Shown piece by piece: positions 23,809 to 63,774 of a stretch of 64,000 bases of DNA. A program made the position numbers and the translations under genes. Position 1 is the first letter of the stretch. Every line of letters starts with the position of its first letter. The notes under the pieces were generated by a model. The model ran no database searches, was not told the origin of the DNA, and saw only the letters and a program-made list of their open reading frames with translations. The stretch is from an uncultured Eubacteriales bacterium (GTDB lineage: Bacteria; Bacillota; Clostridia; Saccharofermentanales; UBA5734), in contig CAILLO010000016.1 of assembly GCA_903835065.1 (NCBI GenBank), forward strand, positions 24,965 to 88,964, read 5' to 3'.

Positions 23809-23967
23809 GCGCATCGAGATATGCGCGATAACCGTAACGGATGCGACGAAAATCGTGCGCGGCACTCGGTGTTCCGAACCCGATAGACCCACCGATTGAC
23901 AAGAGAATCGATTGCGATGATATTGAGTGGGATGGTCCGGAATCGACACGAAGAGGAGGAACCCGTC

Positions 23968-24504
23968 ATGGACTTCGAAAAGGAACTGCTGGCCCTGAAA
24001 CAACAGGTCGCGGACAAGCCGGGTCCGGAGAACAAGCTGACGATGATCGTCTTCTCGGGCGAGCTCGACAAGCACCTCGCCGCGCTCATCATCGCCACTG
24101 GCGCCGCCGCGATGGGCATGAAGGTCGTCCTCTTCTACACGTTCTGGGGCACCGCGGCCCTCCGCTCGCCCAAGAAGAAGGCCAATGGCAAGAACCTGAT
24201 TGAGAAGATGTTCGGCATCATGCTGCCCCGCGGCAACAACAAGCTGATCCTTTCCAAGATGCACACGCTGGGCGCCGGCACCGCCATGATCAAGGGCCTC
24301 ATGAAGAAGAAGCACATCGCGAGCCTCGACGAGATGTACGAGATGGCCGGCGCGCTCGGCGTCCAGATCTACGTCTGCGAGATGTCGATGGACCTGATGG
24401 GCATGAAGATGGAAGAGATGATCGACTATCCGAACATGCGGAGCGCCGGCGTCGCCACCATGCTCGCCGATGCCAAGGAATCGTCCGTCCAGTTCTTCAT
24501 CTGA
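23968..24504 (+). CDS. DsrE/DsrF-like sulfur-relay family protein
   Basis: KLTMIVFSGELDKHLAALIIATGAAAMGMKVVLFYTFWG ... GVQIYVCEMSMDLMGMKMEEM. Confidence 0.8.
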   Translation: MDFEKELLALKQQVADKPGPENKLTMIVFSGELDKHLAALIIATGAAAMGMKVVLFYTFWGTAALRSPKKKANGKNLIEKMFGIMLPRGNNKLILSKMHTLGAGTAMIKGLMKKKHIASLDEMYEMAGALGVQIYVCEMSMDLMGMKMEEMIDYPNMRSAGVATMLADAKESSVQFFI

Positions 24505-24518
24505 GAAGGAGAGAGACA

Positions 24519-24758
24519 ATGGCCGACTACGAGATCAAGAAGACCCTCGACTACAAGGGGCTCGCCTGCCCGATGCCGATCGTCAAGACCAGCATGGAGA
24601 TGCCGAAGATCGCCGTAGGCGACGTCGTCGAGATTCTGTCCACCGACCCCGGCTCGATCGCCGACTTCCCGGCCTGGGCCCGCACGACCGGACAGGCCGT
24701 GCTCGAGGTCAAGCAGGAGCCCGGACTGATCCGCATCTACGTCAAGCGCCAGAAATAG
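24519..24758 (+). CDS. TusA/SirA-family sulfurtransferase
   Basis: LDYKGLACPMPIVKTSMEM (CPxP motif); about 79 aa. Confidence 0.9.
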   Translation: MADYEIKKTLDYKGLACPMPIVKTSMEMPKIAVGDVVEILSTDPGSIADFPAWARTTGQAVLEVKQEPGLIRIYVKRQK

Positions 24759-24813
24759 TCGGCCGCCCCCGCAGGCCGACTCGCACGACGACTACCCTGA
24801 AGGAGGTCCGAAG

Positions 24814-25773
24814 ATGGCATTCGGGTTGTTCTCCCTGTCTGCGCCCGTCTTGATCGACGCGCTCGCCAAGGCCACCGCGAAGGCGACGGCGACGCCGATT
24901 CCGACGCTGGCCCCGACGCTGGCCCCGACCGCGACGCTCGCGGCCGGCGTGTCGCCGACCCTGACCCCGCTCGCCACGCTGACGCCCTTCGCGACCGTGA
25001 CGCCCGACGTGATCGGCAGCGGCTCGATCGTCGTCGCGCAGCACACCGGGCTTCTCTGGGTGTTCGACCAGCTCGAATATCTGATCATGGTCCCGCTGGT
25101 CTATCTTTCGATCCTGTTCTGCATCGGGATGCTGGTCTATCGGATCGTCCAGATCTGGCGCGCCCCCCGGTCGCCCTTCACCCTGCAGGTCTTCCCGTCG
25201 ATGAAGAAGCCCAGGATCGCCGCGCTCGGCGACACCTTCGCGATGCCGCAGGTCCGCCGCCACCAGCCGCTCTTCTGGGTCTTCCTGATGATCTTCCACG
25301 TCTCGCTCGTATTGCTGGTCCTGGGGCACCTCGACCTGCTGCCCCAGATCAGCCTGGTGCCGGAAAGCTCGCGCGACATGCTGGGCGGCGGACTCGTCGG
25401 CGTCGGCGTGACCGTTCCGCTGTTCTACTTCCTGTTCCGGCGCTTCAAGACGCCCAACCGGGAGATCAGCGTGCTCGCGGACTACCTCCTGCTGATTCTC
25501 GTGATCTTCCTCGCCCTGTTCGGCGACCTGATGAGCTGGGGCAACTCCTGGACCACGACCGGCTTCATCCTCACCAAGCAGCACTTCGCGGGCTACCTGG
25601 ACAGCCTCGTCCGGTTCACGTTCCTCGACCCTCGCTACTGGCTCAGCGGCACGCACTACCACTTCGCCGTGCTGCACGTCCTGCTGGCCGAGCTGTTCTT
25701 CGTGGTGGTCCCGTTCTCCAAGATCGTGCACGCCTTCCTGGCGCTGCCGGTCAACCTCCTGAGGAGGAAATAG
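24814..25773 (+). CDS. DsrM/NarI-like membrane cytochrome b-type subunit
   Basis: Multiple TM segments with His residues in the NarI-like part; adjacent to DsrK/HdrD-like gene; N-terminal Thr/Pro/Ala-rich segment. Confidence 0.75.
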   Translation: MAFGLFSLSAPVLIDALAKATAKATATPIPTLAPTLAPTATLAAGVSPTLTPLATLTPFATVTPDVIGSGSIVVAQHTGLLWVFDQLEYLIMVPLVYLSILFCIGMLVYRIVQIWRAPRSPFTLQVFPSMKKPRIAALGDTFAMPQVRRHQPLFWVFLMIFHVSLVLLVLGHLDLLPQISLVPESSRDMLGGGLVGVGVTVPLFYFLFRRFKTPNREISVLADYLLLILVIFLALFGDLMSWGNSWTTTGFILTKQHFAGYLDSLVRFTFLDPRYWLSGTHYHFAVLHVLLAELFFVVVPFSKIVHAFLALPVNLLRRK

Positions 25774-25774
25774 C

Positions 25775-27034
25775 ATGGATGCCGTGATGCAGGCCGAACT
25801 CAAGCGTCTCTTCGAGACGAAGCTCAACCGGGCCATGCGCCTCTACCTCGAGACCTGCACGCACTGCGGCGTCTGCGTCGAGGCATGCCACGTCTGGCAG
25901 TCGATGCCGGAGTCGAAGTACACGGCCGTCGGCCGCGCGGAGATCGTCCGCAAGGTCTTCCTGAAGTACTTCTCGCTGGAAGGGCGGATCGCCCCCTGGG
26001 CCGGCGAGACGATCGAGCTCGACGACGTCGCGGTGGAGCGGTTCTACGACGCCGCCTACTCGTGCACGGGCTGCCGCCGGTGCATGGTCTACTGCCCGTT
26101 CGGCATCGACACGCAGCAGATCATGAGCATCGCCAAGCTTCTCCTCGTGGGCGCCGACAAGGAGCCCAAGCTGCTGTCCATGCTCGCCGACATGAGCATC
26201 GCCAAGGGCGAGGACGTCGAGAGCTCCTCCGCGGGCTTCGCCGAGGCGATCGCGAACCTCGAGCCCCAGGTCGAGGCACTGTACCCGACCCCGGCCGGCC
26301 GGAAGACGATTCCGCTCGGCGTCCAGAAGGCGGACGTCATGTTCGTCGGCCTGTCCGGCGCGCACTCGATCGTGCCCGCCGCCGCGATCCTCAATGCCGC
26401 CGGCATCAACTGGACCCTCAGTTCCTTCGAGGCCGTGAACTTCGGCGCGTTCATGGGCGACCCGAAGCGCACGAAGGCGATCGCCCAGCGCATCGTCGCC
26501 GAGGCCGAGCGCCTGCAGGCCAAGCGCGTCGCAATCGTCGAATGCGGCACCGCGTACCGCGTCATGAAGTACCAGACCGGGGAGCACTCCTTCGAGACCG
26601 TGGCCTTCGTGGAGCTGATCGCCAAGTACCTGAAGGGCGGCATGATCCGTCTGCGCCGCAACGTCGACAAGCGCCTGACCTACCACGACCCCTGCCAGGT
26701 CGCCCGCAACGGCGGCATCTACGAAGCCCCGCGCTTCGTGATCTCGAAGCTCGCGCAGGACTTCGTGGAACTGACCCCGAATCGCGAGTACAACTGGTGC
26801 TGCGGCGGGGGCGGCGGCCTGATCGCCATGGGCGAACTGGAGTTCCGCATGAAGTCCTCGCGCGTCAAGATGGAGCAGGTCAAGGCGACCGGCGCGGGCG
26901 CGATCTGCACGATCTGCGAAAACTGCCACACGCAGTTGACCGACCTGAACGCCCATTACGACATGGGGCTCGACGTGCATTCCCTGACCATGCTCGCGGC
27001 GCACGCGCTGGTGAAGCCGGGCGAGAAGGCCTAG
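25775..27034 (+). CDS. DsrK/HdrD-like iron-sulfur protein, two 4Fe-4S plus CCG domains
   Basis: CTHCGVCVEAC, CTGCRRCMVYCP, DPCQVARNGG, WCCGGGGG, CTICENCHTQL. Confidence 0.88.
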   Translation: MDAVMQAELKRLFETKLNRAMRLYLETCTHCGVCVEACHVWQSMPESKYTAVGRAEIVRKVFLKYFSLEGRIAPWAGETIELDDVAVERFYDAAYSCTGCRRCMVYCPFGIDTQQIMSIAKLLLVGADKEPKLLSMLADMSIAKGEDVESSSAGFAEAIANLEPQVEALYPTPAGRKTIPLGVQKADVMFVGLSGAHSIVPAAAILNAAGINWTLSSFEAVNFGAFMGDPKRTKAIAQRIVAEAERLQAKRVAIVECGTAYRVMKYQTGEHSFETVAFVELIAKYLKGGMIRLRRNVDKRLTYHDPCQVARNGGIYEAPRFVISKLAQDFVELTPNREYNWCCGGGGGLIAMGELEFRMKSSRVKMEQVKATGAGAICTICENCHTQLTDLNAHYDMGLDVHSLTMLAAHALVKPGEKA

Positions 27035-40098: not shown

Positions 40099-41814
40099 AT
40101 GAAGCAGTATCCGCTCTATGATGTCAGGAAGATCCGCGATCTGAGGGACATGCTCGACCAGAGCGCGAAGCTCTACGCCGACAAGGCCGCCTTCCTCGTG
40201 AAGCCAATCAAGGGCGGGGACTACGCGCCCGTGACCTACACGCAGTTCCAGGCGGATGTGCGCGCGCTCGGCACGGCCTTCCTCTCGCTCGGGCTCAAGG
40301 GCGGCCGGATCGCCGTGATCGGCGAGAACCGCTACGAATGGTGCGTCGCCTACCTCGCCGCCGTGAACGGCATCGCGGTCGTCGTGCCGCTCGACAAGGA
40401 ACTGCCCGCCGCCGAGATCCAGAATCTGCTGCTCCGCTCGAAGGCCGACGCCGTCGTCTTCGCCGGTAGCCGCAAGGAGGACGTCCTGGCCGTCCGCGCC
40501 GCGCTGCCCGACCTGCGCCTGCTGGTCGGCATGGACGAGCCCGAGGACCGGGACGGCGTCCTGTCGTACCCGAAGCTGATCGCCCAGGGCGGGAAGGACT
40601 TCGCCGCCGGGAACCGCGCCGTGCTGGACCTCCCGATCGATGTCGAGACGATGAGCGCCCTCCTGTTCACGTCCGGCACGACGTCCGACGCCAAGGCCGT
40701 CATGCTGTCGCAGAAGAACCTGTGCATCAACCTGCAGGCGATGTGCAGCATGCTCTACATCAACGATGACGTCTTCCTGTCGGTCCTGCCGATGCACCAT
40801 ACCTACGAGTGCACCTGCGGCTTCCTGTGCCAGATCTACCGCGGCAACACCGTGGCGTTCTGCGAGGGCCTCCGCCACATCGCGAAGAACCTCAAGGAGT
40901 CCCAGGCGACCAAGATGCTGGTCGTGCCGCTGATGCTCGAGTCGATGCTCAAGAAGATCTGGCAGGGCGCTTCGGCCGACCCGGAGAAGCTGAAGAAGCT
41001 GAAGACCGGCCTACGGATCTCGAATTTCCTCCGCATCTTCGGCATCGACCTGCGCCGCAAGCTGTTCAAGCCCGTGCTCGACACCTTCGGCGGCAAGCTC
41101 GCGCTCTTCATCAGCGGCGGCGCCCCGATCGACCCGAAGGTCATGAAGGGCCTGCGCGACTTCGGCTTCCAGTGCCTCCAGGGGTACGGGCTGACCGAAT
41201 GCGCACCGATCCTCGCGCTCAACCGCGACGTCGCCTTCAAGGACGAGTCGGCCGGCCTGCCGCTGCCGGGCGTGGAGATCCGCATCGACGAACCCGACGG
41301 GAAGGGCATCGGCGAGATCTGCGGCCGCGGCCCGAACGTCTTCCTCGGCTACTACGAGAACGAGGAGGCGACGAAGGAGGCCCTGGTGGACGGCTGGTTC
41401 CACACGGGCGACCTCGGGTACCTGGACAAGGACGGCTTCGTGATCATCACGGGCCGCAAGAAGAACGTGATCGTGACCAAGAACGGCAAGAAGATCTTCC
41501 CGGAGGAGGTCGAGAGCCTGCTCGGCCGCAGCCCCTATATCCTGGAGAGCCTCGTCTACGGCCTCGAGGACGCGGACGGCGAGACGACGGTCGCCGCCGA
41601 GATCTTCCCGGACTTCGACAAGCTGAAGGAGGACAACGGCGGACAGGCTCCCGACGAAGCGGCGGTGCGCGCCACCCTCGCCGAGGAGGTCAAGAAGGTC
41701 AACCACATGCTGGTCAAATACAAGGCGATCCGCCGGTTCGAGGTCCGTTCCGAGGAGTTCGTCAAGACCACGACCAAGAAGATCAAGCGTTATCTGGTCA
41801 AGAAGACGGCGTGA
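40099..41814 (+). CDS. AMP-forming long-chain acyl-CoA synthetase/ligase
   Basis: LLFTSGTTSDAKAVMLSQKN; GYGLTECAPI; GWFHTGDLGYLDKDGFVIITGRKKNVIVTKNGKKIFPEEVE. Confidence 0.92.
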   Translation: MKQYPLYDVRKIRDLRDMLDQSAKLYADKAAFLVKPIKGGDYAPVTYTQFQADVRALGTAFLSLGLKGGRIAVIGENRYEWCVAYLAAVNGIAVVVPLDKELPAAEIQNLLLRSKADAVVFAGSRKEDVLAVRAALPDLRLLVGMDEPEDRDGVLSYPKLIAQGGKDFAAGNRAVLDLPIDVETMSALLFTSGTTSDAKAVMLSQKNLCINLQAMCSMLYINDDVFLSVLPMHHTYECTCGFLCQIYRGNTVAFCEGLRHIAKNLKESQATKMLVVPLMLESMLKKIWQGASADPEKLKKLKTGLRISNFLRIFGIDLRRKLFKPVLDTFGGKLALFISGGAPIDPKVMKGLRDFGFQCLQGYGLTECAPILALNRDVAFKDESAGLPLPGVEIRIDEPDGKGIGEICGRGPNVFLGYYENEEATKEALVDGWFHTGDLGYLDKDGFVIITGRKKNVIVTKNGKKIFPEEVESLLGRSPYILESLVYGLEDADGETTVAAEIFPDFDKLKEDNGGQAPDEAAVRATLAEEVKKVNHMLVKYKAIRRFEVRSEEFVKTTTKKIKRYLVKKTA

Positions 41815-43474
41815 TCGGGAAGACGCGCGTCGCCGCCCGGTAGAATCGATAGCCGCCGGCCAGATTGTATACCTCGGGGAAGCCCGACTGCGAGAGGATC
41901 CGATACGCGACGTGCCCGCGGAGGCCGATGCGGCAGAACTCGTAGACGGGCTTCTTCGCGTCCAGCTCGCCCAGGCGAGCGCGCAGGTCGTCGACCGGGA
42001 TGTTCACGGCGCCCGGGATCGACCCGGCCGCGAACTCCTCCGCGGTGCGCACGTCGAGCAGCGTGACCTTCGCGGGGTCGAGCCCCGCGACGTCCTCGGC
42101 GTAGAACTGCTTCTCCAGACCGTCGAGCACATTCTGCGCGACGTAGCCGGCCATGTTGACCGGGTCCTTCGCGGAACCGAACGGTGGCGCGTAGGCGAGC
42201 TCGAGGTCGGTCAGGTCGTGCACGGTCATGCCGGCGCGGATCGCCGTGGCGAGCACGTCGCAGCGCTTGTCGACGCCGTCGCGGCCGGTCAGCTGGGCGC
42301 CGAGGAGCTTTCCGTCGGGCACGCGGAACAGGAGCTTGACGTTCATCTGGGTCGCGCCGGGGTAGTATCCGGCGTGGCTGCCGCTGTGGGTGTACGTCTT
42401 CGCGTAGGGGATGCCGGCCGCCTTCAGGGCGCGTTCGTTGGCGCCGGTGACGGCGACGGTCATCTCGAAGGCCTTGAGGATCGCGGTGCCCTGGGTGCCC
42501 TTGTAAGCGCTCGGGATCCCGCAGAGGTTGTCGGCCGCGATGCGGCCCTGACGGTTGGCGGGGGAGGCGAGGGGGACGAAGGTGCGCGCGCCGGTGACGA
42601 AGTCCGCCACTTCGATGGCGTCGCCGACCGCATAGATCGAGGGGTCCGAGGTCCGCATGTGCTCGTCGACGCGGATCGTGCCACGCACGCCCATTTCGAG
42701 GCCGGCTTCCCTGGCGAATGTGCCTTCCGGACGGACTCCGACGGCGAGGACGACGAGGTCGGCGCAGATCGCGCCGCCGGTGCTGGTCTGGACGGACAGG
42801 CCCGAGGCGGTGCGCCGGATCGCGGTGACGCCGCAGTTCAGGTAGAGGCCGACGCCGTTCTTCGCGACATGCGCGTGCAGGTCGCCGGCCATGTCGGGGT
42901 CGAGGGGCTGCACGAGGTGGTCCGTCAGTTCGACGATCGAGACGGACAGCGTCAGCGCGCGCAGGTTCTCGGCCATCTCGACGCCGATGTAGCCGCCGCC
43001 GACGACGACGGCGCGCCGGATGCCCGGCTGCTGCACGAACGTCTTGATGCGGTCGGTGTCGGCGAGGTTGCGGAGGGTGAAGACGCCTTCTTCGTCCGCG
43101 CCCTCGAGCGGGGGACGGATCGGGTCCGCGCCGGGGGAGAGGACCAGGGCATCGTAGGGCTCCTCGACCAGGGCGCCGTCGGAAAGGCGGCGCACATGGA
43201 GGCGCTTCGCGACGCGGTCGATGAGGACGGCCTCGTGGCCGACGCGCACGTCGACGCGGTAGCGGTCGTGGAAGGACTCCGGGGTCTGGAGCAGGAGCTC
43301 GTCGCGGTCCACGATCGTGTCGCCGATATAGTAGGGCAGTCCGCAGTTCGCGAAGGAGATGTGCTCCCCGCGCTCGAACATCACGATCTCCGCCGATTCG
43401 TCCAGCCGGCGCAGCCGAGCGGCCGCCGTCGCGCCCCCCGCGACACCGCCGACGATCAGGATCCTTCTGGCCAT
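41798..43474 (-). CDS. CoA-disulfide reductase-like FAD/NAD(P) oxidoreductase with C-terminal rhodanese domain
   Basis: RRILIVGGVAGGATAAARLRRLDE; SFANCGLPYYIGD active Cys; C-terminal VTLLDVRTAEEFAAGSIPGAVNIP ... VYEFCRIGLRGHVAYRIL. Confidence 0.92.
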   Translation of the reverse strand: MARRILIVGGVAGGATAAARLRRLDESAEIVMFERGEHISFANCGLPYYIGDTIVDRDELLLQTPESFHDRYRVDVRVGHEAVLIDRVAKRLHVRRLSDGALVEEPYDALVLSPGADPIRPPLEGADEEGVFTLRNLADTDRIKTFVQQPGIRRAVVVGGGYIGVEMAENLRALTLSVSIVELTDHLVQPLDPDMAGDLHAHVAKNGVGLYLNCGVTAIRRTASGLSVQTSTGGAICADLVVLAVGVRPEGTFAREAGLEMGVRGTIRVDEHMRTSDPSIYAVGDAIEVADFVTGARTFVPLASPANRQGRIAADNLCGIPSAYKGTQGTAILKAFEMTVAVTGANERALKAAGIPYAKTYTHSGSHAGYYPGATQMNVKLLFRVPDGKLLGAQLTGRDGVDKRCDVLATAIRAGMTVHDLTDLELAYAPPFGSAKDPVNMAGYVAQNVLDGLEKQFYAEDVAGLDPAKVTLLDVRTAEEFAAGSIPGAVNIPVDDLRARLGELDAKKPVYEFCRIGLRGHVAYRILSQSGFPEVYNLAGGYRFYRAATRVFPITPSS

Positions 43475-55835: not shown

Positions 55836-57896
55836 ATGACGGTTTCCATGGCGCTCGCACAGACCGGGCTCGGATTCTGGATCTCCTTCTCCCTCTACCT
55901 CTCGGCCGCGGTCCTCGCGCTGCTGCTGTCCCGCTGTCCCCGCGCCGCGAACGTCGCCTCGCACGCCGCCTCGATGGCCGGAGCGGTCGTCGGCGCCGCC
56001 GCCTCGCTCCTGCACCTGCTCGCCGGACCCGGCCGCCTCGTGCTCGCCGACCTCGTCGGGACGGTGCCCCAGCTCGAACTGAAGGTCGTCGTGGACGACC
56101 TGTCCGCCTACTTCCTGCTCGCTCTGTCCGTGCTCGTCTTCTGCGTGTCCCTGTACTCGGTCTCCTATCTCGCGCCCTACGCCGGAAAGCGGAACCTTCC
56201 GCTGTTCGACGCCCTCTACGCGCTGTTCGTGCTGTCGATGGGCCTCGTCTTCACCGCGGGGCACGCCGTTTTCTTCTTGATCGCCTGGGAGATCATGTCG
56301 GTGCTGTCGTACTTCCTCGTCGTCTTCGAGTCGGAGCGTGAGGAGAACGTCCGGGCCGGGACGATCTATCTGGTCATGACCGCGGTCGGCACCGCGTTCC
56401 TGCTGACCGGCATCCTGACGCTTTATGCGAACACCGGGACGTTCGACCTCGGCGCCGCCGCGGGACTGTCACCGGGCGCGCGGACCGTCGTCTTCCTCTC
56501 GTTCCTCGTCGGCTTCGGCATCAAGGCCGGCGTCGTGCCTCTGCACGTCTGGCTGCCCTACGCGCATCCCGCCGCGCCGGCGAACGTGTCCGCGCTGATG
56601 TCCGGCATCATGGTCAAGACCGCGCTGTACGGCATGCTGCGCTTCGTGCTGGTCGGACTCGGCGTGCCGGACGGCTGGTGGGGCGGCGCGCTGCTGATCC
56701 TCGGGCTGGTGACCGCCCTGACCGGCGTGTCGCACGCATACGTCGAAAGCGACATGAAGCGCCTGCTGGCCTATTCGACGATCGAGAACGTCGGCATCCT
56801 CGTGACCGGCCTCGGCGTCGCCTTCCTCGCGCTGTCCGCGGGCCGGCCCGCCCTCGCGTCGCTCGCGCTCGCCGCGACGCTGTTCCACGCCTTCAACCAC
56901 GCGATGTTCAAGGGCGCGCTGTTCCTCGGCGTCGGCTCAGTGCACCATGCGACGCATACGCGCAACCTCGAGGACCTTGGCGGGCTGGTCCGGCGCATGC
57001 CGGCCACCGCCGTTCTGCTCGTCGGCGCCGCGCTCGCAGCCTCGGCGATGCCGCCCTTCAACGGGTTCGCGAGCGAGTGGATGACCTTCCAGGCGCTGTT
57101 CCAGAGCCTCCTGCTCGAGAAGTCGGGCCTCGGCCTGCTCTACGTGCTCGCGGCCGCCGCCCTGGCCCTCGCCGGAGCCCTGGCCGCCGCCACGTTCCTC
57201 AAACTCCTCGGCGTCGGCCTGCTCGGCCGGCCCCGCACTCCCGCGGCCGCCGAAGCGCATGAAGCGCCGTTGCCCGAGCGGATCTCCGGCGGCCTCCTCG
57301 TCGCCTTCTGCCTCGTCCTCGGCCTCGTCCCCGGCGCCGCGCTGCGCGTGCTCGAGCGTCCCGTGCTCGGCCTGACCGGCTTCTCGCCCTCCGCCGTCTC
57401 GACCGGCTGGCTGGGCCTCGACCCGTCGGCGCTGTCGACCTCGCCCGTCGCGTCCGGCACCTACTCTCCATTGCTCGTCGCCGGCGGTGTGGCCGCCTTC
57501 CTGCTCGCGGCGCTGGCCGCGGTGCGGCTGATCGGCGGCCGATTCCTGGTCCGCAGGTACGGGACCTGGGATTGCGGCTTCGAGACGATCGACGCGCGCA
57601 TGCAGTACAGCGCGATGGGCTTCTCCAAGTCGTTCCAGATCATCTTCCGCTTCCTGTTCCGGCCGACGCGCGAGCGCCGGGCGGAGGGCGAGCACCTCTA
57701 CCATCCGGATTCGATCGCGTACACCGTGAAGAGCGTGTCGCCGTTCGAGAAGTTCCTCTACGAGCCGCTCGTCGCCTTCGTCAACGCCCTGTCGCAGAAG
57801 GCCAAGTCCACGATCCAGACCGGCAGCCTGCGGCGCTACCTCGCGTACATCCTGTTCGCCCTGCTGGGCGGACTCGTGTACTTCCTGGTCGCGTGA
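55836..57896 (+). CDS. HyfB/NuoL-like proton-translocating membrane subunit
   Basis: Multi-TM; PLHVWLPYAHPAAPANVSALMSGIMVKTALYGMLR; C-terminal WDCGFETIDARMQYSAMGFSKSFQIIFRFLF. Confidence 0.88.
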   Translation: MTVSMALAQTGLGFWISFSLYLSAAVLALLLSRCPRAANVASHAASMAGAVVGAAASLLHLLAGPGRLVLADLVGTVPQLELKVVVDDLSAYFLLALSVLVFCVSLYSVSYLAPYAGKRNLPLFDALYALFVLSMGLVFTAGHAVFFLIAWEIMSVLSYFLVVFESEREENVRAGTIYLVMTAVGTAFLLTGILTLYANTGTFDLGAAAGLSPGARTVVFLSFLVGFGIKAGVVPLHVWLPYAHPAAPANVSALMSGIMVKTALYGMLRFVLVGLGVPDGWWGGALLILGLVTALTGVSHAYVESDMKRLLAYSTIENVGILVTGLGVAFLALSAGRPALASLALAATLFHAFNHAMFKGALFLGVGSVHHATHTRNLEDLGGLVRRMPATAVLLVGAALAASAMPPFNGFASEWMTFQALFQSLLLEKSGLGLLYVLAAAALALAGALAAATFLKLLGVGLLGRPRTPAAAEAHEAPLPERISGGLLVAFCLVLGLVPGAALRVLERPVLGLTGFSPSAVSTGWLGLDPSALSTSPVASGTYSPLLVAGGVAAFLLAALAAVRLIGGRFLVRRYGTWDCGFETIDARMQYSAMGFSKSFQIIFRFLFRPTRERRAEGEHLYHPDSIAYTVKSVSPFEKFLYEPLVAFVNALSQKAKSTIQTGSLRRYLAYILFALLGGLVYFLVA

Positions 57897-57909
57897 GGGG
57901 AGGGGCGGC

Positions 57910-58857
57910 ATGAAGACGATCCTCTACTGGCTCCTCCAGGTCGCCGCCGCGCTGCTCCTCGCGCCGCTGCCGATCGGCGCGATCCGCAAGGTGAAGGCCC
58001 TGGTGCAGAAGCGGAAGGGCGCGCCCCTCCTGCAGCTGTACCGGGACCTCCTGAAGCTGCTCCGCAAGTCCGCCGTCGTGTCGGACGCGACGTCCTGGGT
58101 CCTGCGCGCCGCGCCGTTCGTCGTCTTCGCGACCTCGCTGTTCGCCGCCGCGATGATGCCGGCGACGGTCCGGGTGCTCCCGGACGCCTTCCCGGGCGAC
58201 CTGATCCTGTTCTTCTTCGTGCTCGCGCTCGGCCGCTTCTTCCTCGTGCTGTCCGGCATGGACGCCGGCAGTTCGTTCGGCGGGATGGGCAGCGCCCGCG
58301 AGGCCATGATCTCGGCTCTCGTCGAGCCGGCCATGCTCGTGGGCCTCTTCGCGGTCGGCCTCTTCGCGAAGACGACGTCGATCCCCGGCGTACTCTCGGC
58401 GATGACCGCCCTCGGCTTCCCGCTGCTCCAGCCTTCGCTGCTGCTCGTCTTCCTCGCCTTCGTGCTCGTGCTGCTCGCCGAGACGTCGCGCATCCCCGTC
58501 GACGACCCCGCGACGCACCTCGAGCTCACGATGGTCCACGAGGCGATGGTCCTCGAGGACTCCGGCCGCCACCTCGCCCTGCTCGAGTACGGCGCCGCCC
58601 TCAAGCAGTACGCGCTGCTCGCGCTGCTCGCCGACGTCTTCCTCCCGTACGACCCCTTCGCCGCGGTCCCCGGCGTCCCCGGGGTCCTCCTGGCGCTCGT
58701 CGCGTTCGCCGTCAAGCTCCTGTTCCTGTCGCTGCTCGTCGGCGCCGTCGAGGCGGCCACCGTGAAGCTGCGCTTCTTCAGCGTGCCGAACCTCGCCGCC
58801 ATCGCCTTCATCCTCTCGTTCCTCGGCGTGCTGCAGTTCCTGATTCCGGGGAGGTGA
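57910..58857 (+). CDS. HyfC/EchB/NuoH-like membrane subunit
   Basis: Multi-TM; GAPLLQLYRDLLKLLRKSAV; GMGSAREAMISALVEPAML; ETSRIPVDDPATHLELTMVHEAM. Confidence 0.88.
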   Translation: MKTILYWLLQVAAALLLAPLPIGAIRKVKALVQKRKGAPLLQLYRDLLKLLRKSAVVSDATSWVLRAAPFVVFATSLFAAAMMPATVRVLPDAFPGDLILFFFVLALGRFFLVLSGMDAGSSFGGMGSAREAMISALVEPAMLVGLFAVGLFAKTTSIPGVLSAMTALGFPLLQPSLLLVFLAFVLVLLAETSRIPVDDPATHLELTMVHEAMVLEDSGRHLALLEYGAALKQYALLALLADVFLPYDPFAAVPGVPGVLLALVAFAVKLLFLSLLVGAVEAATVKLRFFSVPNLAAIAFILSFLGVLQFLIPGR

Positions 58858-58859
58858 CC

Positions 58860-59516
58860 ATGGAGCCGTTCAGCGTCGTCCTGTCCGCGCTGCTTCTCCT
58901 GTCGGCCTTCGTGCTGATGGCCAGCAAGCGCATCCACTCGTATATCGGCGCCTTCCGCGTCCAGGCGGTGCTCGTCGCCCTCAACACCGGGTTGCTCGGC
59001 CTCACGACCGTCGCCGCGACCGGCCGGGTCGACCTGCTCGTCGTCTGCGCCGCGATCCTCGCCCTGAAGGTCTGGTACATCCCCCGGGTGCTCCACCGCA
59101 CCTACCGGGCCGTCGAGTACCGGGTCGAGAAGGACTTCCTGTTCAACATCCCGACGCTCGTGCTGCTGAGCCTCTCCCTCGTCGTCGTCGTGTTCGTCGC
59201 CGTCTCCCGGATCGGCGCCGTGCAGGACGGCACGACGCTCGTGCTGCTCGTCGATTCGCTGTCCACGGCCCTCGTCGGTCTGTTCTTCCTGATCAGCCGC
59301 AAGAAGGCGATCGGCCAGATCGTCGGCCTGCTCGCCATCGAGAACGGCCTGTTCGTCACCGCCCTCTACGCATCGAACGGCATGCCCTTCATCGTGGACA
59401 TCGGCGTCTTCATCGACCTCGTCTCCGCGGTGCTGATCCTCGGCGTCCTGGTCTTCCGCATCGAGAGCGCCTTCGAGACCACCGACACCGACGCGATGAG
59501 CGACCTGAAAGGATAG
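58860..59516 (+). CDS. HyfE-like (NuoK-related) membrane subunit
   Basis: Multi-TM; KKAIGQIVGLLAIENGLFVTAL; position between HyfC- and HyfF-like genes. Confidence 0.82.
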   Translation: MEPFSVVLSALLLLSAFVLMASKRIHSYIGAFRVQAVLVALNTGLLGLTTVAATGRVDLLVVCAAILALKVWYIPRVLHRTYRAVEYRVEKDFLFNIPTLVLLSLSLVVVVFVAVSRIGAVQDGTTLVLLVDSLSTALVGLFFLISRKKAIGQIVGLLAIENGLFVTALYASNGMPFIVDIGVFIDLVSAVLILGVLVFRIESAFETTDTDAMSDLKG

Positions 59517-59521
59517 GCGGG

Positions 59522-61042
59522 ATGGAACTGCTGCTCTGGCTCGTCCCAATCGTCGCGCTCGCGGTGCTGGCTCTGCCGCTGCCCCGCCGCGTCCGGCACG
59601 CCGTCTCGCTCGCGGAGACGCTGGCCACGGCCGCCGTGGCCACCTTCGCCACGTGGACCGTACTGACGCAGGGGACCGCCGCACCCGCCATGCCCGGGAA
59701 CCTCTTCTACCTCGACGCCGTCAGCGTCATCCTGCTCGACCTCGTCGCGCTGGTCGGCCTGTTGACCAGCCTCTACACGATCGGGTACGTCGAGGAGGAG
59801 ATCCGCCGCGGGTCGCTCGACCCGAAGAAGGTGCGGGCGCTCTACCTGCTGATCCACGGCTTCCTGTTCACGATGGTCCTGACGCTGACGCTGCGCAACC
59901 TCGGCGGCGTGTGGATCGCGATCGAGGCGACGACGCTCGCCTCCGTCTTCCTCGTCGGATTCCACAACGGGAAGGCGGCGCTCGAAGCGGCCTGGAAATA
60001 CATCATCCTGTGCTCCGTCGGCATCACGCTGGCCATGATCGGCATCGTGTTCCTGAACAGCGCCGCGCAGGGCGTCCTCGCGGAAGGGACCAGCCTCGAC
60101 TGGACCGCCCTCTTCGCCCGGGCCGACTCGCTCGACGGCTCCTATCTGAAGTTCGCCTTCATCTTCCTGCTCATCGGCTTCGGTACCAAGGCGGGCCTCG
60201 CCCCGATGCACAACTGGCTGCCCGACGCGCACAGCCAGGCGCCTTCCCCGGTCAGCGCGCTGCTGTCCGGCGTGCTGCTGAACGCCGCGATGTACGCGAT
60301 CCTCCGCACCGCCGCCATCGTCAACCGCAACCTCGGCAGCTCCCTCTACACCGGGCGCCTGCTCGTCGGGCTGGGCGTCCTCTCGGTCGCCACCGCCGCC
60401 GTCTTCCTGCTGACGCAGAAGGACTACAAGCGGTTGCTCGCGTACTCGAGCATCGAGCACATGGGCCTCGCCGCGATCGGCATCGGCCTGTTCACGCCGC
60501 TGTCGCTGTTCGCCGCCTTCTATCACATGATCAACCACTCGCTGACCAAGTCGCTGCTGTTCCTCTCATCGGGCACGGTGCTCCAGAAGACCGGCACGCG
60601 CGAAATCGGCAGGGTCGGCGGACTGCTGAAGCTGCTGCCCGTGACCGGCCCCGTGTTCCTGCTGGGTCTGGTCGCGATCGGCGGCACGCCCCCGTTCAGC
60701 CTCTTCGCGAGCGAACTGGCCCTGCTGACGTCGGTCTTCCAGCAGAAACTCTACGTGCTGGGTGCCGGGATCGCGCTGCTGCTCGCCCTGGTCTTCGCCG
60801 GCATCATCCAGGCGCTCTTCCGCGTGTTCTACCCGCGGCCGGCGGCCGTCGCCGCGGCCCGTGCCGGGACCGCGCCCGCGCCCGCCGCGCCGCTCGTCCC
60901 GGGAGAGCCCAACCGCTTCGGCGCCGTGGCCGTCGTCGTGCTGCTCGCCCTGATCCTCGTGACCGGCGTCTTCCTCCCGTCGTGGCTGACGAAACTGATC
61001 GACGCAGCTCAGACGATTCTGACCGGGCAGGGGGGAGGCTGA
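59522..61042 (+). CDS. HyfF/NuoN-like proton-translocating membrane subunit
   Basis: TKAGLAPMHNWLPDAHSQAPSPVSALLSGVLLNAAMYAILR; LAYSSIEHMGLAAIGIG. Confidence 0.88.
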   Translation: MELLLWLVPIVALAVLALPLPRRVRHAVSLAETLATAAVATFATWTVLTQGTAAPAMPGNLFYLDAVSVILLDLVALVGLLTSLYTIGYVEEEIRRGSLDPKKVRALYLLIHGFLFTMVLTLTLRNLGGVWIAIEATTLASVFLVGFHNGKAALEAAWKYIILCSVGITLAMIGIVFLNSAAQGVLAEGTSLDWTALFARADSLDGSYLKFAFIFLLIGFGTKAGLAPMHNWLPDAHSQAPSPVSALLSGVLLNAAMYAILRTAAIVNRNLGSSLYTGRLLVGLGVLSVATAAVFLLTQKDYKRLLAYSSIEHMGLAAIGIGLFTPLSLFAAFYHMINHSLTKSLLFLSSGTVLQKTGTREIGRVGGLLKLLPVTGPVFLLGLVAIGGTPPFSLFASELALLTSVFQQKLYVLGAGIALLLALVFAGIIQALFRVFYPRPAAVAAARAGTAPAPAAPLVPGEPNRFGAVAVVVLLALILVTGVFLPSWLTKLIDAAQTILTGQGGG

Positions 61043-61044
61043 CC

Positions 61045-62553
61045 ATGAAGGAGATCCGCCGCTCCGTCGCGCCCGACGACCTGCCCGACGTCGCCACCCG
61101 CCTCGTCCGCGAGCAGGGCCTGTCCCTCGCCGCCCTCTTCGCCATCGACGAGCGCTCCGCGAACGGCCGGTACCTGCTGCGCTACGTCTTCACCGACCGC
61201 GCCGCGGGGAGCCTGCTGACCCTCGAACTGCCCGTCGCGCACGACCCCGGGACCTTCCCGAGCATCGCCGCGACCGTGCACGCCGCCGCTCTCTACGAGC
61301 GCGAGATCCAGGACCTCTTCGGGCTTTCGCCCGTGGCCCATCCCGACGCGCGACGCCTCGTGCACCATGGAAACTGGCCGGACGGCGAGTTCCCCCTGCG
61401 CCGGGACTTCCCCCTCGGCCGCAAGCCGCCCCGCGCCGCGCTGGAACAGCCGTTCCGGCGCGTGGAGGGCGAGGGCGTCTTCGAGATCGCCGTCGGCCCC
61501 GTCCATGCCGGCATCATCGAGCCCGGGCACTTCCGCTTCAGCGTGGCCGGCGAACCCGTCGTGAACCTCGAGGCGCGCCTCTACTACGTGCACCGCGGCA
61601 TCGAGAAGTTGTGCGAAGGTGAGACCCCCGAACGCGTCCTGTTCTTCTCGGAGCGCATCTCCGGCGACGAGACCTTCGCGAACTCCCTCGCCTACTGCGA
61701 AGCGGCCGAGCGGATCGCCGGAATCGAGGTCCCCGCCCGCGCCCGGTACGGCCGTGTGCTGTTCGCGGAGCTCGAGCGCCTGACCTCGCACCTCGGCGAC
61801 CTCGCCGGCATCTGCCTCGACACGGCGTACGGCTTCGGCGCGTTCCAGTTCCGCATGATGCGCGGCTGGGCGTACCTGATGGCCGACGAGCTCTGCGGCA
61901 TGCGCTTCCTGCGCAGCGTCGACCGCATCGGCGGCCTGCGCAGGGACTTCGCGGCCGGGAAGGCCGATAGCCTTCATGGGCAGATCGCCCGCATCCGCGC
62001 GGAACTCGGGGACACGTCGGCCCTGATCCACGCGAACAACCTGTTCATCGACCGCGTCGAGACGACCGGAGTGCTGTCCGCCGAAGCCGCCGCCGACCTG
62101 AACGTCACCGGTCCGGGTGGCCGGGCCAGCGGCGTGCGCTACGACGTGCGGCGCGACTTCCCCTACGCGGCCTACGGCGAGCTCGGCGTGCGCGTCTCCG
62201 AGCACAACAACGGCGACGTGAACTGCCGGATGAACGTGAAGATCGACGAATGCCTCGCCTCGCTCGACCTGATGGACCAGGCCCTGGACGCGATGCCGGA
62301 CGGCCCGGTCCTCGCCGCCGTCGGCCCGCTGCCCCCGCACCGCGGAGCCTTCGGTCTCGTCGAATCCCCCCGCGGCGAGAACCTGCACTGGCTCGAGACC
62401 GACGCGGACGGCAACGTCGCGCGCTACAAGGTCCGCACGCCCTCGTTCTGCGCCTGGCCGGCCCTGTGCCTCGCGGTCCAGGGCAACGTCGTGCCGGACT
62501 TCCCGCTGATCAACAAGAGCTTCAACCTCTCGTACGCGGGCAACGACCTATGA
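61045..62553 (+). CDS. HyfG/NuoCD-like large subunit lacking NiFe-binding cysteines
   Basis: YEREIQDLFGLSPVAHPDARRLVHHGNWP (NuoC-like) then YYVHRGIEKLCEG...RVLFFSERISGDETFANSLAYCEAAERI (NuoD/HyfG-like, no CGIC) and C-terminus INKSFNLSYAGNDL (no DPCxxC). Confidence 0.88.
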   Translation: MKEIRRSVAPDDLPDVATRLVREQGLSLAALFAIDERSANGRYLLRYVFTDRAAGSLLTLELPVAHDPGTFPSIAATVHAAALYEREIQDLFGLSPVAHPDARRLVHHGNWPDGEFPLRRDFPLGRKPPRAALEQPFRRVEGEGVFEIAVGPVHAGIIEPGHFRFSVAGEPVVNLEARLYYVHRGIEKLCEGETPERVLFFSERISGDETFANSLAYCEAAERIAGIEVPARARYGRVLFAELERLTSHLGDLAGICLDTAYGFGAFQFRMMRGWAYLMADELCGMRFLRSVDRIGGLRRDFAAGKADSLHGQIARIRAELGDTSALIHANNLFIDRVETTGVLSAEAAADLNVTGPGGRASGVRYDVRRDFPYAAYGELGVRVSEHNNGDVNCRMNVKIDECLASLDLMDQALDAMPDGPVLAAVGPLPPHRGAFGLVESPRGENLHWLETDADGNVARYKVRTPSFCAWPALCLAVQGNVVPDFPLINKSFNLSYAGNDL

Positions 62554-62566
62554 GGAGGGCGAAGCG

Positions 62567-63364
62567 GTGAGCATGGTCGGCAAGATCCTCCTCTACGGGC
62601 GACTGACGTTCCGGTACCCGAAGGAGCCGATGGACGCGACGAACTTCTCGGCGTCGCCGCGCATCGACCCCGCGGCCTGCAACGGATGCGGCGAGTGCGT
62701 CGTGCGCTGTCCTTCCCGGGCCATCTCCCTCCAGCCGGGGACGGGCATCGGCATCGACTACGACCAGTGCGTCTTCTGCGCCCTGTGCGCCGACGTCTGC
62801 CCGACCGGCGCGGCCCGGATGACCCCGCATTTCGAGCTCGCCCGCCGCGACCGCGCCGCGCTGCGCCACTCTCCCCTCGTCGTGCGCGAGGATCTCGTGC
62901 CCGCCGAGCCCGTCGAGACGACCGGCCGACTGCTCGAAAAGGAGATTCGTCGCCGTTTCGGGCGCAGCCTCGCGGTCCGCGAGGTGGACTCCGGGTCCTG
63001 CAACGGCTGCGACTACGAGATCAACGCGCTGAACAACCCCTTCAACGACCTCGAGCGCTTCGGCGTCCACTTCGTCGCCTCGCCCCGCCACGCGGACATG
63101 CTCCTCGTGACCGGCACCGCGACGCGCAACATGGAGCGGGCCCTGATCCGCACATACAATGCGGCGCCCGACCCGAAGCTCGTCGTCGCGGTCGGCGCCT
63201 GCGCGTGCAGCGGCGGAATCTTCCGCGGCTCCTACGCGACCCGCGACGGCATCGACCGTCTGGTGCCCGTCGACGTCTACGTCCCCGGCTGTCCGCCTCG
63301 CCCGCAGGCCGTGCTGCACGGCATCCTGCTCGCGATCGGGAGAATGGGGGAGGTCGACCCATGA
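62567..63364 (+). CDS. Fusion of two-[4Fe-4S] ferredoxin domain and NuoB/HyfI-like small subunit
   Basis: CNGCGECVVRCP and CVFCALCADVCPTGA, then GSCNGCDYEINALNNP, VGACACSGGIF, YVPGCPPRPQAVLHGI. Confidence 0.9.
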   Translation: MSMVGKILLYGRLTFRYPKEPMDATNFSASPRIDPAACNGCGECVVRCPSRAISLQPGTGIGIDYDQCVFCALCADVCPTGAARMTPHFELARRDRAALRHSPLVVREDLVPAEPVETTGRLLEKEIRRRFGRSLAVREVDSGSCNGCDYEINALNNPFNDLERFGVHFVASPRHADMLLVTGTATRNMERALIRTYNAAPDPKLVVAVGACACSGGIFRGSYATRDGIDRLVPVDVYVPGCPPRPQAVLHGILLAIGRMGEVDP

Positions 63365-63774
63365 GGGAGGACGAAGCCGTCCACGCCGCCCGGCAGGCCT
63401 TCGCCGTCGAGGTCGCACGGGAGAAGCTGCGGAAGCGCAAGGTCGGCTGGCTGTTCCCCGTCGTCCTGGTGCCGCTCGTCGCGGGCCCCGTCTACTGCAG
63501 TTCGCGCAACGGGTGGCCCTTCCCCTGGGCCATGGTCGGCTATACGGCTGGCATCTTCCTTCTCTTCGTCGGCTACAAGCTTTTCTTCGAGGTCCGGTTC
63601 CACCGCACGCTGCGCGACGAGATGTCCCGGATGCTCGATCGGGCAGCGACGGCCGCCGACGATGGCACGCCGGAACCCGTCGCCGAGGAGTATGCCCGCT
63701 ACGTGCGGGGGACAGCCTTCCACGGGATGAACGGCATGCTCCGGAAGCGCTTCCGCCTCGACCTGGCGCCATAG
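63361..63774 (+). CDS. Small membrane protein coupled to the Hyf-like operon, unknown function
   Basis: ATGA overlap with upstream gene; two hydrophobic segments (WLFPVVLVPLVAGPVY; WAMVGYTAGIFLLFVGYKLFF). Confidence 0.65.
   Translation: MREDEAVHAARQAFAVEVAREKLRKRKVGWLFPVVLVPLVAGPVYCSSRNGWPFPWAMVGYTAGIFLLFVGYKLFFEVRFHRTLRDEMSRMLDRAATAADDGTPEPVAEEYARYVRGTAFHGMNGMLRKRFRLDLAP

Follow-up and report, generated by a model that had tools for sequence, protein, structure and literature searches.

An energy-converting-hydrogenase-related (Ehr) operon in an uncultured Eubacteriales bacterium: a putative ion pump with a polar pocket in place of the NiFe site

What might be accomplished by a membrane complex that is assembled from the parts of a group 4 [NiFe] hydrogenase, but has none of the cysteines that would hold the metal? 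The question is raised by an operon near the end of a contig of an uncultured Eubacteriales bacterium (assembly GCA_903835065.1, contig CAILLO010000016.1), of which we analyzed a stretch of 64,000 nucleotides, here called the window and numbered from its own first letter. Six open reading frames (ORFs), ehrABCDLS, lie on one strand at 55836-63364 with intergenic gaps of -4 to +13 bases, and their Pfam and NCBIfam matches are to HyfB, NuoH/HyfC, HyfE, HyfF, HycE/HyfG (a fusion of NuoC and NuoD) and HyfI/NuoB, respectively, in agreement with the tight Hyf-like operon described in a first-pass annotation made from the letters alone. Our analysis supports the assignment of these genes to the Ehr complexes, a known family reportedly defined by Marreiros 2013 and Coppi 2005. 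The genes are as follows:

55836..57896, plus strand: EhrA, HyfB-like antiporter-type subunit, 686 aa (Proton_antipo_M 1.4e-56; top NCBIfam model hydrogenase 4 subunit B, 3.8e-183, under its curated cut-off)
57910..58857, plus strand: EhrB, HyfC/NuoH-like membrane anchor with the E-channel motif THLELTMVHEAMVLE, kept family-wide (NADHdh 2.5e-37)
58854..59516, plus strand: EhrC, HyfE-like membrane subunit (NF008556 hydrogenase 4 membrane subunit, 2.7e-20, under its curated cut-off)
59522..61042, plus strand: EhrD, HyfF-like antiporter-type subunit (Proton_antipo_M 3.7e-52; NF005044 hydrogenase 4 subunit F, 1.2e-129, under cut-off)
61045..62553, plus strand: EhrL, large subunit, a NuoC plus NuoD/HycE fusion without NiFe cysteines (7z0s_E, 1.4e-85)
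62567..63364, plus strand: EhrS, small subunit, a ferredoxin domain fused to a HyfI/NuoB domain (Oxidored_q6 1.5e-33; Fer4)
62657..62821, plus strand: the 2x[4Fe-4S] ferredoxin-like domain of EhrS, 8 Cys (Fer4 matches, residues ~31-85)

A conserved pocket in place of the NiFe site

When EhrL is aligned with the Escherichia coli subunit HycE, the RVCGICGFAHS stretch of the hydrogenase corresponds to RISGDETFANS and the DPCxxC region, at the extreme C-terminus, to SFNLSYAGNDL, whereby the four NiFe cysteines of HycE and its relatives are represented by S206, E209, S496 and G499. The loss of both cysteine pairs, as claimed at the outset, is borne out by this alignment and by 62 relatives of the same no-NiFe kind: none of the four ligands is left. 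Cysteines at shifted positions were looked for and not found; that explanation is rejected on the ungapped alignment at the motif and the same pattern in the 62 relatives. The two halves of the pocket that takes the place of the metal site are:

61660..61671, plus strand: S206 G207 D208 E209 replacing CGIC (alignment; codons from 61660, TCC GGC GAC GAG)
62530..62550, plus strand: S496 Y497 A498 G499 N500 D501 L502 replacing C(x2)C(x)(D/E)R (alignment)

Conservation of the pocket is nearly complete. Among the 62 relatives, G207, S496, Y497 and D501 are found in all, S206 in 61, G499, E159 and H162 in 60 each, and D208 in 58. Many of these sequences came from a scan of our collection with the peptide patterns HAG[IV]IEPG and NKSFNLSY, so that part of the conservation seen in these two stretches comes from the search itself; S206-E209 lay outside the patterns, however, some rows (L104 and L107, for example) do not contain NKSFNLSY and yet have S496, Y497, G499 and D501, and a pattern-free protein search, covering 398 genomes of the same phylum, gave matches that agree on the pocket. 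The no-NiFe pattern was found again in independent genomes at 58-63% identity, a recurrence far beyond chance. An AlphaFold2 model of EhrL (mean local confidence, pLDDT, 90; predicted template-modelling score, pTM, 0.92; only loop 152-164 under pLDDT 50) has as its top fold match in the PDB the HycE subunit of formate hydrogenlyase (7z0s_E, TMq 0.93). As read from the residues, a fixed polar pocket without metal has taken the place of the NiFe site.

Two subtypes of this pocket can be distinguished, SGDE/N213 in the window and SGDT/H213 in other Ehr complexes. Position 213 is the site of the proton-path residue His75 of MbhL, the large subunit of the membrane-bound hydrogenase (Mbh). All 20 sequences with E209 have N213, and none of the 38 with another residue at position 209 has it (window 61669-61671 and 61681-61683); since two changes on the tree suffice to account for this pairing, it is best taken as an ancient subtype mark and as weak independent evidence. 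In Mbh, an arriving electron lets E21 pass a proton, the K24-D379 ion pair breaks and the beta1-beta2 loop moves (PMC11228991). The counterparts of E21, K24 and D379 in the HycE alignment are E159, H162 and D501, and all three are kept. Because these coupling sites persist and the patterns of complex I and of the archaeal sulfane-sulfur reductase MBS are absent, the Ehr pocket looks like an ancestral [NiFe] site from which the metal was lost, with the proton and coupling path of the hydrogenase left in place.

Phylogenetic position and selection

A tree of EhrL relatives, built without the pocket columns and without the Geobacter sequence among its rows, unites Ehr and NiFe-bearing "ELCYxC" relatives in one clade of 74 rows (SH-aLRT 99) that adjoins E. 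coli HycE and HyfG. The window EhrL falls inside a Bacillota clade (support 96-99). Within the tree as a whole it groups with organisms reported to have Ehr (Nitrospira, ammonia-oxidising archaea and the candidate phyla radiation, CPR) and apart from complex I; the deepest branching order within the family is unsettled. The no-NiFe family is distributed over many phyla, and a single SGD-type clade is not rejected (approximately unbiased test, p 0.588), so repeated independent origins of the SGD motif are not required. A close relationship with canonical complex I or with an active hydrogenase, a placement that was checked for, is rejected by the tree, in which the NiFe-bearing ELC-type proteins are sisters. 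These relatives, of the Desulfotomaculum ruminis Desru_3260-3265 type, share the FPLINKSF context with Ehr but retain CGxC and CYxC, and are possibly true hydrogenases (PMC3569383). Varied losses of NiFe ligands occur inside the ELC clade itself (L070, L035, L091, L098 and L101; SGIC/ELSYAC, CGVC/ELFYSC and SGxS/xLSYSG), including partial losses in L070 (SGIC/ELSYAC) and in L035, which has three of the four cysteines. A Melainabacteria locus (L113, 9896-12054) encodes a large subunit with all four NiFe cysteines (CGMC, NLCYAC) and a small subunit with one of the four proximal-cluster cysteines.

The Ehr complexes of Geobacter, Nitrospira, ammonia-oxidising archaea, Methylacidiphilum and CPR bacteria have the same gene set, the same missing NiFe cysteines and the same sequence clade as the window operon; EhrL of Nitrospira moscoviensis is 48% identical to that of the window. 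The E. coli formate hydrogenlyase-1 and Hyf systems (HycE, HyfG), the nearest outgroup, have the E159, H162 and D501 positions in common with it, but the window lacks the four NiFe cysteines, HycB, HyfD and a separate HyfH.

Could the operon be a decaying, functionless remnant of a hydrogenase? The Ehr of Geobacter has been called nonfunctional and under relaxed selection (PMC13194489). The replacement motif is near-invariant across phyla, however, the operon is intact in those related loci that were long enough to be examined, and the ratio of nonsynonymous to synonymous substitution (dN/dS) is ~0.07 and ~0.09 in two unsaturated pairs from the window clade. The near-invariant pocket and these ratios show conservation without decay in this clade and contradict a nonfunctional, drifting Ehr, at least there; we regard decay as the least credible of the explanations considered here.

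Iron-sulfur centres of EhrS and their loss in relatives

The small subunit keeps its proximal-cluster cysteines (GSCNGCD, GACACSG and PGCPP), as had been stated from the letters. To this can be added an N-terminal 2x[4Fe-4S] domain ahead of the HyfI/NuoB domain, whose fusion to EhrS explains why there is no separate HyfH gene. The fused domain, with two CxxCxxCxxxC motifs, is found in all scored members of the Bacillota clade of the window, where all 12 iron-sulfur (Fe-S) cysteines, enough for three [4Fe-4S] sites, are kept; such conservation implies that electrons probably matter in this clade. The Nitrospira EhrS, by comparison, has ~175 aa and no ferredoxin domain.

In other lineages the proximal-cluster ligands themselves have been lost. 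This was seen in the Patescibacteria loci L069, L073, L075, L080, L085 and L086, in an archaeal/Chloroflexota clade (L089, L095, L097) and also in L079 and L103; on the tree it requires two events or more. The C-x-x-C motif has become T/D/S-N-A/S-C/T/E, GAC/GDC has become GDD/GDG, and PGCPP has become PGDPP/PGNPP, with ordinary Asp, Asn, Thr and Ser codons at the changed positions; no more than one of the four proximal cysteines is left, there is no ferredoxin domain, and the operons are otherwise intact. Examples of the cluster-less EhrS genes are:

L069, 4301-4840
L073, 4253-4795
L075, 4248-4835
L080, 347-889
L086, 4069-4596
L079, 3980-4522
L095, 11511-12023
L097, 3771-4301

In these loci EhrL keeps SGDx...NLSYxG(x)D. 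The cluster-less EhrS passes the Pfam Oxidored_q6 model, has a predicted fold resembling that of MbhJ (TMt 0.89) or NuoB, and is no less conserved than its own EhrL. A further 380 Patescibacteria genomes yielded 12 Ehr-type small subunits, partly overlapping with the earlier loci and including one fragment, all of them changed; two matches with intact cysteines in the same sample adjoin the large subunit of a CGIC hydrogenase. Among the genomes checked, six have no further small subunit of the EhrS kind. Large subunits of CPR Ehr have been described as lacking the metal cysteines (PMC7304191), and in the open-access literature that we found the small subunit goes unmentioned, which is not proof of novelty. 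Directly upstream of or beside the Ehr operon of several Patescibacteria-type loci stand genes that appear, from their sequence, to encode F-type ATP synthase subunits (L073, 812-4120; L075, 2917-3345 and 16250-20699; L079, 33-3722; L085, 494-2214).

Genomic context

The genome of the window (2.5 Mb, 98.5% complete) has no complex-I-type large subunit besides Ehr and one true group 4 hydrogenase on another contig, C28 (G000, 65961-72161; L001, L012 and L139), which has intact CGIC and DPCISC motifs and lies near HypD. HypD is absent from eight of the 15 Ehr-bearing genomes (G001, G005, G239, G104, G130, G337, G213 and G110; completeness 93-100%), from which we conclude that Ehr does not need the NiFe cofactor. 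EhrL has neither the two CxxC motifs of group 4 [NiFe] hydrogenases nor a need for Hyp maturation, and its acceptor is not H2. The proposal that the operon is of Ehr type and no hydrogenase is supported by its residues, tree, structure and HypD distribution alike.

The genome also has an RnfC match. The related loci have no conserved oxidoreductase neighbour of Ehr, which implies a self-contained unit; the commonest neighbours outside the operon are clusters that read as response-regulator-like and ABC-transporter-like. Downstream of ehrS, with a 4-base overlap, stands one further ORF, probably outside the core complex and lineage-specific, with no homologue in 24 related loci:

63361..63774, plus strand: ORF7, 137 aa with hydrophobic stretches, no Pfam or NCBIfam match

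The contig ends ~0.2 kb beyond this stretch. Elsewhere in the window, a DsrE-family protein, a NarI-like membrane cytochrome and an HdrD/DsrK-like Fe-S protein are encoded consecutively at 23896-27034, and a CoA-disulfide-reductase-like flavoprotein with a fused rhodanese domain at 41798-43474 on the minus strand.

Weighing the possible functions

We think it somewhat probable that this Ehr is a ferredoxin-linked ion pump built like formate hydrogenlyase and Hyf. Electrons from reduced ferredoxin would pass through the two clusters of the ferredoxin domain to the proximal cluster, which borders the pocket; the change of charge there, together with protonation of pocket residues (E159, D208/E209), might move the beta1-beta2 loop of EhrL by way of H162 and D501, which correspond to the K24-D379 ion pair of MbhL, and EhrB with the antiporter-like EhrA and EhrD could then translocate H+ or Na+. 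A ferredoxin-linked pump had been proposed in the first-pass annotation, and the window operon is consistent with it in that the glutamate and lysine motifs of the EhrA pump, the pump residues of EhrD and the 12 Fe-S cysteines are kept, while pumping and the input from ferredoxin are what we infer. Several observations weigh against this account. No acceptor has been identified, and an electron path without an exit cannot turn over; 25 of the 52 scored no-NiFe EhrS proteins have the proximal cluster without a recognisable ferredoxin domain; sister lineages hold the same pocket without any electron-carrying centre; and no biochemistry of any Ehr was found in the literature covered.

The candidates for an acceptor differ in how well they fit. 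A ferredoxin:menaquinone oxidoreductase, in effect a simplified complex I, would suit the NuoCD-like fold, the occurrence of the family in respiring bacteria such as Nitrospira and the NarI-like cytochrome in the window (24814-25773), usually a quinol partner. Menaquinone markers are present in five Ehr-bearing Bacillota genomes (MqnA and MqnC in G212 and G060, MenD in G238, G312 and G263; weak in G337), but nine of the 15 Ehr genomes, that of the window included, have neither recognised pathway, and in the window's genome MqnA, MqnC and above-cut-off MenD were not found; two genomes (G239, G213) are without any UbiA-family match. Scavenged or unusual quinones might still serve, and since the NarI-like and HdrD-like pair (24814-27034) would usually use a membrane quinol, the organism may have a carrier that is scavenged or escaped recognition. 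Relative to complex I, with which the core fold is homologous (31% identity to Thermus Nqo4 in a Foldseek alignment), EhrL has I158 and G207 at the quinone-headgroup residues H38 and Y87 of Nqo4, EhrS has the hydrogenase-type CNGC and not the adjacent CC of NuoB, and the operon is without NuoEFG genes. Menaquinone is therefore an unlikely acceptor in this organism, and the menaquinone reading an unlikely one overall. Reduction of sulfane sulfur or polysulfide in the manner of the archaeal MBS, the acceptor floated in the first-pass annotation, fares worse still. The Pyrococcus MBS is likewise derived from group 4 and devoid of a functional NiFe site, and DsrE-family and rhodanese-fused genes do occur in the window. 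In MBS, though, two of the four NiFe cysteines are retained, an equivalent of MbhL E21 is missing and the proximal cluster, owing to a loop three residues shorter, has three Cys (PMC7684303); EhrL has none of the four cysteines and keeps E159, and the proximal loop of EhrS is ungapped against HyfI and HycG, the proteins with which it was compared, and so looks hydrogenase-like. The sulfur genes are 12-32 kb distant and are not conserved neighbours of Ehr in relatives, so that sulfane sulfur is not supported as the acceptor, and the acceptor is probably not polysulfide by the MBS mechanism. A formate-linked module working with formate dehydrogenase (FDH) draws its support from the literature, where it has been put forward for other Ehr complexes (PMC6349859) and where Geobacter proteomics hint at it (PMC7894505). 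FDH-alpha matches are missing from seven of the 15 Ehr-bearing genomes, including that of the window, and no FDH stands beside the operon; such a module seems highly improbable here.

A different possibility is that Ehr is a non-redox or redox-gated ion transporter, whose core exchanges ions or couples conformational changes without net electron transfer and in which the Fe-S domain of the Bacillota proteins would gate transport or sense the redox state. We consider both parts of this idea rather doubtful, but better founded than a quinone role. The Mrp antiporters, redox-free relatives of the membrane arm, are a precedent. In Patescibacteria and in the archaeal/Chloroflexota clade the EhrS cysteines have become D/T/S, D/G and D/N, while the EhrL pocket, the EhrA pump glutamates and lysines, the EhrB E-channel and, mostly, the EhrD residues are kept. 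The persistence of pocket and pump residues after cluster loss means that electron flow may be dispensable to the pocket, and because L089, L095 and L097 share the SGDE/N213 subtype of the window without an Fe-S ligand, conservation of the pocket alone is no evidence of an electron acceptor. Set against this are the 12 cysteines retained throughout the clade of the window, and in the cluster-less lineages the complex may have taken on another role.

Implications

Ehr complexes are widespread, and our data oppose decay, H2 and a simple quinone role in this organism; the exact residues to be tested are now defined. We offer as a tentative proposal that the Ehr pocket might be no acceptor site at all, and that electron input could be optional to what is an ion-translocating member of the complex I superfamily. 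As tentatively, the input might form a series, from a full Fe-S chain in Bacillota, through the proximal cluster only in many lineages, to none in Patescibacteria and some archaea, in which acidic or polar residues stand at the ligand positions. With the cluster-less Ehr comes the question of whether ion transport can be driven or gated by a peripheral arm of the complex I type when no electrons flow, and, if the proposal is true, Ehr would be a redox-free complex with such an arm.

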